Assembly: GCF_001179965.1 (NCBI RefSeq)
Contig: NZ_CVSH01000038.1
Span: forward strand, 1 to 64,000
DNA: 64,000 nucleotides
Origin: Candidatus Pelagibacter communis
GTDB taxonomy: Bacteria > Pseudomonadota > Alphaproteobacteria > Pelagibacterales > Pelagibacteraceae
Reading direction: 5' to 3'
Numbering within the stretch: the first letter of the stretch is position 1; each line of letters begins with the position of its first letter. The notes under the pieces are model-generated. The model was not told where the DNA came from. It worked only from the letters and a program-made list of their open reading frames with translations, and made no database searches. A program made the translations under genes and the position numbers. Shown piece by piece: positions 15,324 to 21,700 of the stretch.

Positions 15324-15999
15324 TTTTATAAGATTAAAAAAAATAAACAAAATTTTTGATTTAAGAAATAAAGTTAGAGCACTTAAAAATATAAATCTTG
15401 AATTTAATCTTGGAAGAATTTATTCAATCGTTGGACCATCAGGATCAGGTAAATCAACTTTATTAAATATGTTATCTTTAATCGATAGCCCAACCTCAGG
15501 ACATATAAAAATTAATAATCAAAATATTATTATAGGAAATAACAATGAAAATGATAATTTAAGAGCGAGCTTAATTGGAATAATTTACCAAAATTATAAT
15601 CTTCTAAACGATTTTACTGCCATTGAAAATGTTACACTAGCAGGACTCGCTTTAAACAAAAATAGAAGACAGGTACTTTTAGACGCAAAAAAAATTATGA
15701 GCAATTTAGGACTATCAAAAAGATTTGATCATTTTCCATCAGAACTTTCTGGTGGAGAGAATCAAAGAGTTGCTATTGCAAGAGCATTGATAAATAAACC
15801 AAAAATAATATTAGCAGATGAACCAACCGGAAATTTAGATATTGCATCGGCTAAAAATGTTTTCAAAGTATTAATTAATTTAAAAAAATCAAATAGAATA
15901 ATTATATTTGCAACCCATAATAGAGAATTTGCAAACATGTCTGATTGTAAAATAGAAATGATTGATGGTAATATAAAATCAATCAATGGACAATTATAA
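15316..15999 (+). CDS. lolD: Lipoprotein-releasing ABC transporter ATP-binding protein
   Basis: ATPase driving lipoprotein release with the LolC-type permease. The 227-aa protein carries Walker A (GPSGSGKST), the ABC signature LSGGENQRVAIARAL, Walker B (IILADEPTGNLD) and the switch histidine in FATHNREF. Length and architecture match LolD. It overlaps lolC by 8 bases and dnaE by 14 bases, indicating one transcript. Confidence 0.93.
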   Translation: MSSFIRLKKINKIFDLRNKVRALKNINLEFNLGRIYSIVGPSGSGKSTLLNMLSLIDSPTSGHIKINNQNIIIGNNNENDNLRASLIGIIYQNYNLLNDFTAIENVTLAGLALNKNRRQVLLDAKKIMSNLGLSKRFDHFPSELSGGENQRVAIARALINKPKIILADEPTGNLDIASAKNVFKVLINLKKSNRIIIFATHNREFANMSDCKIEMIDGNIKSINGQL

Positions 16000-18900
16000 A
16001 AATTTCAATCACATAAAAATTCATACCCAATATTCAATTTGTGAAGGAGCATTAAAAATAAATGAATTAGCTGAATTTTGTAAAAAAAATAAAATTAAGG
16101 GTGCAGGTCTTTCAGACACATCAAATTTGTGTGGAGCGCTAGAATTTTCAGAAAACTTGTCCAAATCAGGTACCCAACCAATCATTGGAACCCAAATAAA
16201 TTTTAAATTTAAAGATATTATAGGTTTATTGCCTCTTATAGCAACTTCAGAGAAAGGTTATCAAAATATTATAGAATTTTCATCCAATTCATATTTGAAA
16301 AATAATGATAAAGACGAACCTCATTGTAATTTCAATGATGTTCTATCTACTGTTAATGATATTATAATCTTATCTGGTACTATAAATGGTTTAATTGGAA
16401 AATTGTTCGTTAAGGGTAGAATTGAAGAAATTGAGGAAATTTACTCAAACTTAAAAAAAAAATTCAAAAATAATTTTTATATAGAAATTCAAAGACATGG
16501 TGATGAAAATGAGAAAACTTTTGAACAATTTAATTTAAATCTTTCAAAAAAATTAGATATACCGATTATTGCTACAAATGAGGTTTTTTACATAAGCAAG
16601 GATATGCATGATGCTCATGATGCTTTAATTTGTATAGGAAATAAAACTTATCTGAACGAAAAAAATAGAGTTAAATATTCCAACAATCATTATTTAAAAT
16701 CAGATAATGAAATGGAAAAAATTTTTTCTGACCTTCCCGAAGCTTTAGAAAATAATTATAACTTAATATACAAATGTAATTTTAAGCCAAGTTTTTCAAA
16801 GCCGGTATTACCAAATATAAGTTCCGATAAAGGTGGAAATGCAGATGAAAATCTTATCGAGGATTCAAATTTGGGATTAAAAGAAAAATTTTTAAAAATA
16901 TTTAAAATTGATGAAAATAATCTTTTTCAAAATCAAGAATTTAAAAAATATAAACAAAGACTTGATCATGAAATTAAAATTATCATAGAAATGAAATACT
17001 CTAGTTATTTTCTTATCGTTGCAGATTACATTAAATGGGCTAAAAATAATGAAATTCCAGTTGGTCCGGGCAGAGGGTCTGGTGCTGGTTCTTTAGTTGC
17101 ATGGTGTCTTTCTATAACTGATGTTGATCCAATAAAATTTAATTTGATATTTGAGAGATTTTTAAACCCTGATAGAATATCCATGCCTGATTTTGATATA
17201 GACTTTTGTGAAGAAAAAAGAGATTTAGTTTTTAAGTACTTAAACTCAAAATATAAAGATAGCGTTGCACATATTGTTACTTTTGGAAAATTAAAAGCAA
17301 GAATGGTAATAAGAGACGTTGGCAGAGTTTTAGGTCTTTCTTATGGTTTTGTAGATAGTATATCTAAAATGATACCATTTGATCCCTCACGACCCCAAAC
17401 CTTAACGGAGTGCATTAACAATGAACCAAGACTAATTAAACTTATTAAAGAAGACACAAGAGTTAAAAAGTTGATCGATCTATCTTTGAAGCTAGAGGGT
17501 TTGAATAGAAACTTTGCTACTCATGCAGCAGGTGTTGTAATAGCAGATAAAAAACTTACTAACACTGTTCCTTTATACAAAGATATGTCTACCAATTTAC
17601 TTTTACCATCTACACAATTTGATATGTATTCAGCAGAAAATTCTGGTCTAATTAAATTTGATTTTTTAGGTCTTAAAACATTAACAGTAATCAATAGAAC
17701 TCAAAAATTAATAAATAAAAAATTAAAAGATTTTACAATTGAGAATATTGACTTCGAGGATCAAAAAGTTTTTGAAATGTTATCAACAGGCAATACCGTT
17801 GGATTATTTCAGCTTGAAAGTGCAGGGATGAGGGAGGCTTTAATAAAAATGAAACCTAACCATTTAGAGGATATCATCGCTCTTGTTGCACTATATAGAC
17901 CTGGACCAATGAGTAATATTCCAACCTACAATGATTGTAAACATGGCAAACAACAGCCCGATTATCTGCATCCACTATTGGAAGAAATATTAAAACCCAC
18001 TTACGGTGTAATAATATACCAAGAGCAAGTTATGCAAATAGCACAAAAGCTTTCAGGGTTTACTGCTGGTGAGGCAGATATATTAAGAAGAGCCATGGGA
18101 AAAAAAAAGAGAGCTGAATTAGAAAAACAAAAAATGAGATTTATTGATGGAGCTGTTAAAAATGGTATTAAAAAAGATGTTGCTGCGGGTATTTTTCTAA
18201 AAATAGAACCTTTCGCCGAATATGGTTTTAATAAAAGTCATGCCGCAGCTTATGCAATAATTGCTTATCAGACAGCTTTTTTAAAATGTTATTATCCAAA
18301 TGAATTTTTCTCTGCATCAATGACAATGGACATTTCAAGTCAATCAAAATTAGGAGAGTTTTATGAAGAGTTGAATAGGTTGGATATAAATGTTGTAAGA
18401 CCAAATATTAATAAATGTTACGCAGATTTTAGATCTGATAATGAGAATTTTTATTATGCATTAGGAGCTATAAAAAATGTAGGTTTTGAGGCAATCTCTA
18501 GTATAGTCGAGGAAAGAAAAAAAAATGGTAAATTTAAATCAATAAACAATTTTATTGAAAGAATTAATCCTAAAAATCTTAATAAACTTCAATTGGAAGG
18601 GTTAGTAAAAGCAGGAGCTTTTGATAATCTTGTAGATAACAGACAGTCTTTATATGACTCGATACCGAGTTTAATCCTAAAGTCAAAAAATATTTTTGAA
18701 AATAAATCGGTAAATCAATCTAATTTATTCGAAGAAGAAGGAATTATTGAGGAAGATTTATTAAAAAAAATTGAAGACTGGAAATTCGAGGATAGATTAT
18801 CTAAAGAATTTGAAGCTGTAGGATTTTTTATATCTGATCACCCATTAAATCAATTTAGAGATAGTTTTGAGGACTACAATATAATTAGTTACATAGATTT

Positions 18901-19393
18901 TAATAATAATGAAATTAAAGAGGCTAATATTGCAGCTACTATATTGAAGATTCAAGAAAAAAAAACTCAAAAGGGGAATTCTTATGCAATAGTTAAATTA
19001 ACAGATCTTGGATCAGTTTTTGAGCTTTTCCTTTTTTCTGATGTTTTAGAATCTAATAGAGATATACTAATTGAGGGTAATTCAATCATTTTAACTCTTA
19101 CGAAAAACAACTTAGAAGATGATAATCGTTTTAAACGTATTAATGTAAGAAAAGTTGCATCTTTAAAAAATCTCTATGAAAAACCAATAAACAACATAGA
19201 AATTCTTATTAAAGACCAGAAATACTTAAATGATGTTCAAAAAATATTAGAAAAAAATGGCCAAACCCAAGTCATCATTAAAATATTAGATCAGGATAAT
19301 AAGTTAGTATTTAATTTAAAAAATAGGAGGTTAGTTGATAGAAAAAACCTAAACCTGCTTAAAAACCAAGGTATTTCCACCAATATTTTTTAA
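15986..19393 (+). CDS. dnaE: DNA polymerase III subunit alpha
   Basis: Replicative DNA polymerase catalytic subunit. The 1135-aa protein begins with a PHP domain (HIKIHTQYSICEGAL). It continues with the polymerase core, including PVGPGRGSGAGSLVAW and the catalytic PDFDIDFCEEKRD. The fingers region has LYRPGPMSNIP and YQEQVMQIA, then FNKSHAAAYA. A helix-hairpin-helix and a C-terminal OB-fold region (TQKGNSYAIVKLTD) follow. Length is slightly below the alphaproteobacterial norm. It is the last gene of the tightly packed run that starts with nuo. Confidence 0.97.
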   Translation: MDNYKNFNHIKIHTQYSICEGALKINELAEFCKKNKIKGAGLSDTSNLCGALEFSENLSKSGTQPIIGTQINFKFKDIIGLLPLIATSEKGYQNIIEFSSNSYLKNNDKDEPHCNFNDVLSTVNDIIILSGTINGLIGKLFVKGRIEEIEEIYSNLKKKFKNNFYIEIQRHGDENEKTFEQFNLNLSKKLDIPIIATNEVFYISKDMHDAHDALICIGNKTYLNEKNRVKYSNNHYLKSDNEMEKIFSDLPEALENNYNLIYKCNFKPSFSKPVLPNISSDKGGNADENLIEDSNLGLKEKFLKIFKIDENNLFQNQEFKKYKQRLDHEIKIIIEMKYSSYFLIVADYIKWAKNNEIPVGPGRGSGAGSLVAWCLSITDVDPIKFNLIFERFLNPDRISMPDFDIDFCEEKRDLVFKYLNSKYKDSVAHIVTFGKLKARMVIRDVGRVLGLSYGFVDSISKMIPFDPSRPQTLTECINNEPRLIKLIKEDTRVKKLIDLSLKLEGLNRNFATHAAGVVIADKKLTNTVPLYKDMSTNLLLPSTQFDMYSAENSGLIKFDFLGLKTLTVINRTQKLINKKLKDFTIENIDFEDQKVFEMLSTGNTVGLFQLESAGMREALIKMKPNHLEDIIALVALYRPGPMSNIPTYNDCKHGKQQPDYLHPLLEEILKPTYGVIIYQEQVMQIAQKLSGFTAGEADILRRAMGKKKRAELEKQKMRFIDGAVKNGIKKDVAAGIFLKIEPFAEYGFNKSHAAAYAIIAYQTAFLKCYYPNEFFSASMTMDISSQSKLGEFYEELNRLDINVVRPNINKCYADFRSDNENFYYALGAIKNVGFEAISSIVEERKKNGKFKSINNFIERINPKNLNKLQLEGLVKAGAFDNLVDNRQSLYDSIPSLILKSKNIFENKSVNQSNLFEEEGIIEEDLLKKIEDWKFEDRLSKEFEAVGFFISDHPLNQFRDSFEDYNIISYIDFNNNEIKEANIAATILKIQEKKTQKGNSYAIVKLTDLGSVFELFLFSDVLESNRDILIEGNSIILTLTKNNLEDDNRFKRINVRKVASLKNLYEKPINNIEILIKDQKYLNDVQKILEKNGQTQVIIKILDQDNKLVFNLKNRRLVDRKNLNLLKNQGISTNIF

Positions 19394-19448
19394 AAAAATA
19401 CTTGTTAAATTTTAAATAAGATTGTAAACAAAGCCAAATTAACACGCA

Positions 19449-19511
19449 CACAGTTAGTGGTTGTAAAACCTCCGGTCCTTAAATGGAAATAACTGTGGAG
19501 GCATAACCGGG
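19449..19511 (+). promoter_or_regulatory. Pseudoknotted rpsB 5' leader (candidate S2 autoregulatory element)
   Basis: The 125-base gap before rpsB holds strong complementarity. CACAGTTA (19449-19456) pairs perfectly with TAACTGTG (19490-19497). Inside that loop, GGTT/AACC (19459-19470) forms a hairpin with a GTAA tetraloop of GNRA type. TCCGGT (19471-19476) can pair with ACCGGG (19506-19511), which lies outside the first stem, so the fold is a pseudoknot ending 7 bases before the ATG and covering the weak Shine-Dalgarno GGGA. An alternative pairing, CCTCC (19469-19473) with GGAGG (19497-19501), would exclude it. Feedback by ribosomal protein S2 is inferred from position only. Confidence 0.65.
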
Positions 19512-19518
19512 AAAAACT

Positions 19519-20295
19519 ATGAAATTACCTGAACTAAGTATACAACAATTATTAGACGCTGGTGTTCATCTTGGTCATAAAACCTTGAGATGGAACCCAA
19601 AAATGAAGAGATATATCTTTGGAAAAAGAGACTCAATTCATATTATTGATTTAACACAAACTTTAGAACTTACTAAAGTTGCTTTGGAAAAAATCTTTGA
19701 AGTAATTAAAAATAATGGAAAAATACTTTTTATCTCAACAAAAAAACAGGCATCTGAAGCAATTGCAGATTTGGCAAAAGAAACGAACCAATATTATGTT
19801 AATTACAGATGGCTTGGTGGAATGCTTACAAATTGGGGCACAATATCAAATTCAATTAAAAAATTACAAAAATTAAATACAGATTTAGTTGCAGAAAATA
19901 GAGGATTTACAAAAAAAGAGCTCTTAAAGATGAGTATACAGCGTGATAAGTTACAAAGATCACTTGGTGGTATATCTGACATGAAAAAAGTTCCAGATTT
20001 AGTATTTATTATTGATACCAATTATGAGTCATTGGCAATTAAAGAGTCTATTAAATTAAATATACCTATAATTGCTATATTAGACACAAATTCAGATCCA
20101 GACGGTATAAATTTCCCTATTCCTGGTAATGATGATGCAAGAAGATCAATTGATCTATATTGTAAACTAATAAAAGAAACAATTGAAAGTGCTAAACTTG
20201 AAGCCCCATCACCAGCCGAAGAAAAAAAATTAAAAGATCTAGAAACCCTTAAACAACCAGAAAATAAAGCGTCACTAAAACCAAAATCTAATTAA
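19519..20295 (+). CDS. rpsB: 30S ribosomal protein S2
   Basis: Small-subunit ribosomal protein. The N-terminal [25 protein letters not shown] and the central [16 protein letters not shown] and DLVFIIDTN segments are standard S2 signatures. At 258 aa it has a typical core plus a lysine-rich acidic tail. It is the first gene of a rpsB-tsf-frr unit and is preceded by a structured leader. One base separates it from tsf. Confidence 0.98.
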
Positions 20296-20296
20296 A

Positions 20297-21148
20297 ATGA
20301 GTGACATTGAGAAGATAAAGCAATTAAGACAATCTACAGGTGCAGGTTTTAAAGATTGTAATGCCGCAATACAAGAGTCGGGCGGAGATATTGATAAAGC
20401 AATAGAAATATTGAGAGTTAAAGGCGTTTCAAAAGCATCAAAAAAAATGTCCAGAGAGGCTAAAGAAGGAGTAGTTGCTTTGAGTGGTAATGAAAAAAAG
20501 TTCTCGATAATAGAGGTAAATTGTGAAACAGACTTTGTAGCAAAAAATGAAGATTTCATAAATTTTGTAAAAGAATTAAGTGAGATAAATTTATTGAACA
20601 ACTCAGATGTAGAAAAAATCAAAAAAGTTAAAATGAAAAATACAGATACGGTAGAAAATAATCTTGTATCAATTATTGCTAAAATCGGTGAAAAAATAAC
20701 TATAGGTCGGGCTAAAACAATATCGAATGAAAATTCATTAAATTTTAGTTACTTGCATTCAGTGGTTAAAGATAATTTATCAAAACTTGCGGTTGTAGTT
20801 TCCTTAAACACTAAAGAAAAAAATGAAAAAATTAATATTTTTGGAAAACAGCTTGCAATGCATATTGCAGCCTCTAGTCCTATAGCACTTGAGTCTAAAG
20901 ATATTCCTCAATCAATTATTGAAAAAGAACAAGAACTAGTAACTGAAGAACTAAAAAATTCTGGGAAACCTGATGAGATTGTAAAAAAAATTAGTTTAGG
21001 TAAAATAAATAAATTTAAAGAAGATAATAGTTTATTAAGCCAACCTTGGGTTATGGAACCAAAGAAAAAAGTAAAAGATATTTTAAAAGAGTTGAATATA
21101 TCAGATCTAAAAATTAATGACTTCTTCAGACTTAAAATTGGAGAATAG
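20297..21148 (+). CDS. tsf: Elongation factor Ts
   Basis: Guanine-nucleotide exchange factor for EF-Tu. The N-terminal UBA-like region has [30 protein letters not shown], and the core has [15 protein letters not shown], which contains the TDF contact with EF-Tu. Length is 283 aa. Its stop is followed immediately by the frr start. In most bacteria pyrH lies at that junction, but here it is absent. Confidence 0.97.
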
Positions 21149-21700
21149 ATGTTTAAAAAAGAAATTTATAATCAAAAAATGCAAAAGACACTAGATGTCT
21201 TTAATAAAGAACTTGGTGCTTTAAGAACAGGACGTGCTAATGCAAATATGTTGGATCTTATCAAAGTTGATGTCTATGGACAAAAGATGCCTATTAATCA
21301 ACTAGCTACAATAACAACACCAGAACCAAGGACAATAAATATTCAGGTTTGGGATCTAAATAATGTAAATTTAATTGACTCAGCAATAAAAAAATCTGAG
21401 CTAGGATTAAATCCTCAAATTGATGGACAGCTAATTAGACTACCTGTTCCAGATCTAAGTGAGGAGAGACGTAGCGAAATGAAAAAAATAATTAAATCAA
21501 TGGGTGAAAAATGTAAGATATCAATTAGAAATATTAGAAGAGAAGCAAATGATGATTTAAAAAATTTGCTAAAAAAAAAAGATATTTCTGAAGATGAGGA
21601 GAAAAAATATGAAAAAGATATACAAGTATTAACAGATAATCATATAAAAATTATTGACGATAAAGTTATAGCTAAAGAAAAAGAAATAATGACAATATGA
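21149..21700 (+). CDS. frr: Ribosome-recycling factor
   Basis: Splits post-termination ribosomes together with EF-G. The 183-aa protein shows LGALRTGRANANMLDLIKVDVYG, the PEPRTINIQVWD segment, and LPVPDLSEERRSEMKKIIKSMGE; these form the long three-helix arm and the small beta domain of the family. It begins on the base after tsf and overlaps uppS by 4 bases. Confidence 0.97.
   Translation: MFKKEIYNQKMQKTLDVFNKELGALRTGRANANMLDLIKVDVYGQKMPINQLATITTPEPRTINIQVWDLNNVNLIDSAIKKSELGLNPQIDGQLIRLPVPDLSEERRSEMKKIIKSMGEKCKISIRNIRREANDDLKNLLKKKDISEDEEKKYEKDIQVLTDNHIKIIDDKVIAKEKEIMTI

Follow-up and report, generated by a model that had tools for sequence, protein, structure and literature searches.

An S2 (rpsB) leader motif in a Pelagibacteraceae genome, with its pseudoknot close to the start codon

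What kind of RNA is made from the bases between dnaE and rpsB in this genome, and what may it do to the gene that follows? A sequence-only reading of the locus described a pseudoknotted leader that could exist in two states, and supposed that ribosomal protein S2 feeds back on its own synthesis through it. To see how much of this picture stands, the leader has to be placed among known RNA elements, its pairings have to be compared among relatives, and the short stretch between its pseudoknot and the start codon has to be considered by itself.

The leader and its neighborhood

The features discussed below are as follows, in the numbering of the window, which means the whole stretch of 64,000 nucleotides that was analyzed.

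15986-19393, forward strand: dnaE, upstream of the leader (NF004226, 1295 bits)
19402-19429, forward strand: predicted rpsB promoter; -35 TTGTTA at 19402-19407, 16-nt spacer, -10-like GTAAAC at 19424-19429
19445-19456, forward strand: 5′ strand of P1; the core is 19449-19456, and the lower part, 19445-19447, contains a G.A mismatch
19449-19456 with 19490-19497, forward strand: P1 core, CACAGTTA with TAACTGTG, 8 Watson-Crick pairs
19459-19470, forward strand: P2 hairpin GGTT-GTAA-AACC, 19459-19462 pairing with 19467-19470
19471-19476, forward strand: pseudoknot 5′ strand (J2/3), UCCGGU, with a conserved core and compensated variants
19477-19486, forward strand: possible P3, two base pairs, 19477-19478 with 19485-19486
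19490-19500, forward strand: P1, 3′ strand, covarying with the 5′ strand and overlapping GGAGG at 19497-19501
19506-19511, forward strand: pseudoknot 3′ strand, ACCGGG, with 7 nt between it and the start codon
19519-20295, forward strand: rpsB, ribosomal protein S2 (uS2) (TIGR01011, 309 bits, cut-off 76.3)
20297-21148, forward strand: tsf, elongation factor Ts, next downstream (TIGR00116, 251 bits, cut-off 104)

Direct reading of the window bears out the perfect 8-bp stem 19449-19456/19490-19497, the hairpin and the pseudoknot that had been described, all at the positions given for them. To the stem can be added C19447-G19498 and C19445-G19500, flanking a mismatch, G19446.A19499, at the base of P1, where 91 of 110 distinct SAR11 rows have G.U instead. 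The pseudoknot strands TCCGGT and ACCGGG make five Watson-Crick pairs and one terminal U.G, and 7 bases separate 19511 from the ATG at 19519. The P2 loop is GTAA, so that the GNRA cap that had been pointed out does exist in the window; P2 loops differ in sequence and length among relatives in the SAR11 leader alignment, however, and thus the cap is incidental rather than a conserved feature. Likewise, the pseudoknot stands while its description as a plain H-type does not, for the overall fold is a junction of P1, P2, and P3 in which J2/3 takes part in the pseudoknot.

The promoter-like element at 19402-19429 places the predicted start upstream of P1, probably near 19436. A corresponding pattern, TTGnnn-N15..18-[TG]TAnAn, a descriptive one chosen after the sequences had been viewed, occurs upstream of P1 in 90 of 170 SAR11 leaders, whereas 50 shuffles gave 20.6 on average and 29 at most; ten further leaders, of 180 in all, lacked a P1 start or 70 upstream bases. 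A generic consensus promoter scan did not list 19402-19429 and gave only a minus-strand site.

A separate observation concerns the genes further downstream. In many bacteria pyrH is encoded between tsf and frr. At 21148-21149, the tsf/frr junction of the window, there is no pyrH (UMP kinase, TIGR02075) between the two genes, and of the 80 named loci (defined below), 74 gave both tsf and frr, and in every one of these frr begins within 5 bases of the end of tsf. No PyrH over the TIGR02075 cut-off was found in 46 genomes of the genus or in 58 of the family, two overlapping sets that include single-contig genomes, while 10 of 14 control genomes gave one. Weaker matches fall in open frames of mostly about 370 and 410 codons, and judging from this length they are probably other amino-acid kinases. 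Among substitutes looked for in five genomes, Cmk matches were present in all and over the cut-off in two; UMP/CMP-kinase-family matches were also present in all five, none over the cut-off, and these may be adenylate kinase. Where UDP comes from in these cells is thus a question worth asking.

Identity of the element

Is this a new element? The kind of element is already known, and it is already known in the SAR11 group. Meyer et al. (2009; PMC2704228) discovered the rpsB motif in Candidatus Pelagibacter ubique, in the dnaE-rpsB intergenic region 873155-873283, and the passages of their paper on this motif give it P1, a P2 of three pairs, a P3 of two pairs and a pseudoknot of five pairs, stated there to be previously unidentified, that joins J2/3 to the strand after P1. 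The same passages call the motif a likely control element for S2 production and assign it to most Alphaproteobacteria except most Rickettsiaceae, and to most Gammaproteobacteria. As far as that description goes, the window agrees with it in the gene, in the dnaE-rpsB intergenic region, in P1, in the short P2 and two-pair P3, and in the five pseudoknot pairs by which J2/3 joins the strand 3′ of P1; P2 has four pairs here where three are given for P. ubique, which is no difference in kind. The features that define the motif were all found: a position directly upstream of rpsB, a long covarying P1, a short P2 and P3 at the junction, and a J2/3 that forms a pseudoknot with the strand 3′ of P1. We thus have here, almost certainly, a further Pelagibacteraceae genome that carries the S2 (rpsB) leader motif described by Meyer et al. 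(2009). That a related alphaproteobacterial S2 leader might already be catalogued had been guessed from the letters, and, given this motif and its match in Rfam, correctly so.

How such an element is filed in a database is a somewhat different matter. RF01815 (rpsB) appears, by its name and by the match, to be the Rfam form of the motif. It matches the window at 19445-19527 over all 132 model positions with 38.6 bits (E = 4.9e-6), short of its gathering score of 40 bits, and RF00127 (t44) gives 26.1 bits against a gathering score of 44; accordingly, a scan of the whole window with Rfam at gathering scores returned three tRNAs only, the leader being absent. At E <= 0.001 the leader alone is matched by RF01815 in its source genome, whose assembly is 68% complete. 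We searched 147 SAR11-family genomes, 115 of which show an rpsB match and 32 none: RF01815 has matches at E <= 1 in 86 of the 147 (Infernal, with stricter filters), and its 40-bit cut-off is reached in none of them. A leader from elsewhere in the class (L161) passes the cut-off with 44.6 bits. It is to be noted that one genome of the family, G026, has its rpsB start at 873284, fitting the published HTCC1062 intergenic region 873155-873283. From these coordinates, G026 is very probably HTCC1062 and its leader the founding P. ubique sequence. This leader, which has the same base as that of the window in 82 of 95 aligned columns, scores 33.3 bits and stays under the cut-off as well. Since the cut-off is failed by G026 and by all 147 genomes of the family, it does not define the motif of Meyer et al., and the element of the window is filed under that motif and not under RF01815 or t44. 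Routine annotation with the RF01815 cut-off would miss the motif in the very group in which it was discovered.

Comparative evidence for the fold

The family sample was drawn from 113 of the 115 genomes with rpsB and, with one second copy added, comprises 112 distinct leaders; a fragment without the gene start (G136) and G023 were left out. Covariation was counted on 110 distinct rows from the alignment of the 112. From the class, where 285 genomes had a match, 99 leaders were taken outside the family, namely 26 returned loci and 73 selected manually among the best matches listed, in most cases one for each genus, so that this sample leans to genomes whose S2 resembles the query; three of them (L067, L068, and L072) were dropped as no start was found, leaving 96. 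A named set consists of the 80 records with the nearest S2 that are titled Pelagibacteraceae, Pelagibacterales or Candidatus Pelagibacter. ACCGG lies within 14 nt of the start in 78 of these 80 loci (the exceptions are L269 and L270), and 68 named leaders were selected by having it at most 14 nt before the start.

One genome in the family sample, G060, carries two rpsB copies, L153 (G060:C18) and L114 (G060:C5), with leaders of different types, one resembling genus g4 and the other g9. Its listed contamination is 6%, and it is probably a mixed assembly.

Folding of the single sequence is unremarkable. The fold of 19430-19540 contains P1, P2, and P3, yet it is no more stable than that of shuffled sequence (z = +0.29). 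The unconstrained minimum-energy fold of 19440-19530, at -16.4 kcal/mol, lacks P1 and has the pseudoknot helix as a nested stem, while -14.2 kcal/mol is obtained if P1 is forced and the pseudoknot strands are left free. Therefore, the case for the structure rests on comparison.

Among SAR11 leaders (110 rows), P1 shows changes on both sides at 7 of its 11 pairs with 89.7% of cells paired, and P2 at 3 of its 4 pairs; P3 is weak, with such a change at one of its two pairs and 72.7% of cells paired. The compensatory changes for which comparison had been recommended are thus present in P1 and P2. Taken as a whole, the structure has 210 cells changed on both sides against a mean of 102.1 in shuffles, none of 500 shuffles being as high, and its percentage paired and covariation score also lie above all 500. 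Two other counts do not rise above the shuffles: the number of pairs with a both-side change (11) is reached in 102 of 500, and the number of pair types (29) in 481 of 500. If the structure is slid along the alignment, at most 52.9% of cells pair, versus 87.4% in the true register, with at most 94 cells changed on both sides and a far lower covariation score, although one slid structure reaches 30 pair types, no fewer than the true register. RNAalifold, unaided, finds P2 and the helix of the pseudoknot in the SAR11 alignment, with two pairs more; P1 is missing from its result, since no nested structure can hold both it and the pseudoknot.

A model built from the SAR11 leaders was then run against the 99 upstream regions of the class and gave 73 matches at E <= 1, of which two, both in L078, are not rpsB leaders; thus 71 of 99 class leaders are matched. 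The class alignment A2 has 73 rows, those two being kept in the counts, and in it both-side changes are seen at 9 of 11 pairs in P1, all 4 in P2 and both in P3, in an alignment fitted to the structure, which favors the structure in such counts. As the 5′ strand of the pseudoknot is misaligned in many of its rows, A2 was not used for the pseudoknot.

How, then, can the pseudoknot be judged? Its canonical form CCGGU/ACCGG occurs in 111 of 112 leaders of the family and 82 of 96 of the class, and the five core pairs are invariant in SAR11 apart from single cells. Such near-invariance means that data from the family alone say nothing for the pairing, and we have to look at the exceptions. A regular-expression search for the 3′ strand was dropped, having missed 8 leaders and been ambiguous in 45 of 200, and the 15 non-canonical leaders were read by eye instead. 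One of them (L177) has only its 5′ strand changed. Among the 14 with a changed 3′ strand, an exact Watson-Crick partner is present in six, each of these partners being rare among the 193 canonical leaders used as a control (2 to 8 of them); seven have wobble-tolerant partners only, for which the control (47 to 193 of 193) is uninformative, and one, L146, has no partner and is the single broken pseudoknot of SAR11. Three of the six compensated leaders come from family f25 and the others from f99, f80, and f137, f99 and f80 sharing the same change, so they would represent at least three independent events, not six. Compensation in the third stem, for which the earlier suggestion of a pseudoknot had called, is therefore seen outside SAR11, in these six leaders and in the E. 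coli pair GGGGU/ACCCC described below. With covariation in P1 and P2, compensated changes in the pseudoknot and the Rfam match as evidence, we take the fold of the leader to be real. Comparison over a much larger number of SAR11 genomes thus backs the S2 leader as published, including its pseudoknot.

The same comparison tells on the idea that the leader is a two-state switch, in which J2/3 would pair either with ACCGG, as the pseudoknot, or with GGAGG, the two being mutually exclusive. The alternative pairing itself is there in the window: CCTCC at 19469-19473 and GGAGG at 19497-19501 make 5 perfect pairs, with a predicted duplex of -7.0 kcal/mol, and a nested fold of 19440-19530 with this pairing forced reaches -16.0 kcal/mol, so close to the unconstrained value that energies alone are not decisive. 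In each of the 110 distinct SAR11 rows, moreover, the four outer pairs are standard if G.U is counted as such. Two of these four never vary, however; the other two change on a single side (C to U, in 3 and 26 rows), and the same bases also take part in P1, P2, and the pseudoknot. At the central position, 73 of 109 SAR11 rows have no pair, and pairing is as good or better in 450 of 500 shuffles. When the base before CCGGT is counted jointly with the N of GGNGG, standard pairs number 36 in the family where 40.9 are expected (n = 111), 2 in the named loci versus 2.9 (n = 68), and 36 in the class versus 36.4 (n = 68 of 96), numbers close to what independent bases would give. GGUGG is the form met most often in SAR11, and it weakens the duplex to -2.6 kcal/mol. 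On pair counts, joint base counts and duplex energy, a conserved two-state switch is rejected, and we regard it as highly improbable; the pairing noticed in the window stands, without covariation and with its central pair mostly unpaired among relatives, and it might still form in this one genome. The comparison thereby removes an alternative pairing proposed for the S2 leader.

From the pseudoknot to the start codon

What would the fold do? For E. coli, a review (PMC10931766, 2024, citing Aseev 2008) states in its part on S2 that excess uS2 represses translation of rpsB-tsf, that repression in vivo has been published, and that effective repression needs bS1. The leader of E. coli (L309; T44/tff, RF00127) also precedes rpsB and, according to that review, belongs to a gene with known S2 autorepression. 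It shares with the window P1 and a run of 14 identical bases, GTGGAGGCATAACC, which starts at 19495 in the window; the E. coli stretch ends in ACCCC where the window has ACCGG. In our assignment, the E. coli pseudoknot is GGGGU/ACCCC, at the equivalent place and of different sequence; GGGGU occurs twice in the junction and is mostly unpaired in the t44 structure of Rfam. The E. coli leader differs from the window in having a long hairpin in its junction, and also in the distance from the pseudoknot strand to the start, which is 24 nt with an SD-like GAGG in E. coli and 7-8 nt with no SD-like 4-mer in the window.

This last difference extends to the whole group. The gap between ACCGG and the start has a median of 8 in the family (111 of 112 leaders) and of 17 in the class (85 of 96), and in 107 of 111 SAR11 leaders 6-10 nt separate the end of the pseudoknot strand from the start codon. 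An SD-like 4-mer 3′ of ACCGG is found in 5 of 111 family leaders versus 78 of 85 in the class. The named Pelagibacteraceae loci agree, with a median gap of 8 and no SD-like 4-mer in 68, a shortness that is partly by construction as these were selected for a gap of at most 14 nt. For energies, we used what we take to be the anti-SD sequence. SD-like 4-mers are scarce in the window at large, being present in only 9 of its 55 long ORFs, so that their lack at rpsB fits the genome. The pseudoknot had been said to cover a weak Shine-Dalgarno, and what holds of this is that its strand occupies the position of one; an SD-like sequence itself follows in very few leaders of the family. The peculiarity of the SAR11 leader is its shorter gap from pseudoknot to start, and not the missing SD.

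By analogy with E. coli, feedback by S2 is likely in SAR11 too, rpsB being the presumed regulated gene and its product uS2 the presumed repressor. Transcription would start about 10 nt upstream of P1, as predicted, and the 5′ UTR would fold into P1 and the small P2/P3 junction, with J2/3 pairing with the strand just downstream of P1; comparison supports a pseudoknot lying beside the start codon. If the E. coli case is a guide, uS2 in excess over 30S subunits would bind and stabilize this fold, probably with bS1, and bound uS2 would block initiation on rpsB, lowering S2 and, via the operon, EF-Ts. Since the pseudoknot strand in SAR11 sits where an SD would be, steric blocking of the ribosome may be the simplest step of inhibition.

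Might the fold instead serve translation without any feedback? A pseudoknot that recruits bS1 or the 30S subunit would be a constitutive enhancer in SAR11, and it is true that bS1 binds pseudoknots with high affinity (review PMC10931766) and that another recruitment device would be useful where SD-like sequences after the pseudoknot are so rare. However, the motif is kept in class leaders that do have an SD-like 4-mer, most class leaders in the sample have it ahead of rpsB, whether counted by pseudoknot or by model match, and its relative in E. coli responds to S2 according to the same review; we consider such an enhancer unlikely. A stand-alone small RNA is highly improbable, in spite of the Rfam type of both the rpsB and t44 families, 'Gene; sRNA', and of the E. 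coli annotation 'putative small RNA T44' (tff), which ends 26 nt before rpsB: no terminator-like site was found in 19300-19530, and the constant short distance of the pseudoknot strand from the start codon is what is expected of a 5′ UTR element. A known S2 leader, with a pseudoknot and with translational autorepression by uS2, is very probably the best explanation of the whole.

Within this explanation, we suggest tentatively, and with more doubt than conviction, that the S2 leader of SAR11 is a compacted form: its pseudoknot strand would have moved to the SD position, with an SD seldom coming after it, so that forming the pseudoknot alone would mask the landing site of the ribosome. In a literature search that covered titles and the openings of abstracts, the short distance from pseudoknot to start in SAR11 was absent, which is weak evidence that the feature is new. 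The review's part on the E. coli operator reports that it excludes the ribosome binding site and calls the mechanistic details unclear (PMC10931766). If the suggestion is true, SAR11 would use direct occlusion, unlike E. coli. The short distance from pseudoknot to start in SAR11 offers a handle on the mechanism by which S2 represses its own synthesis.
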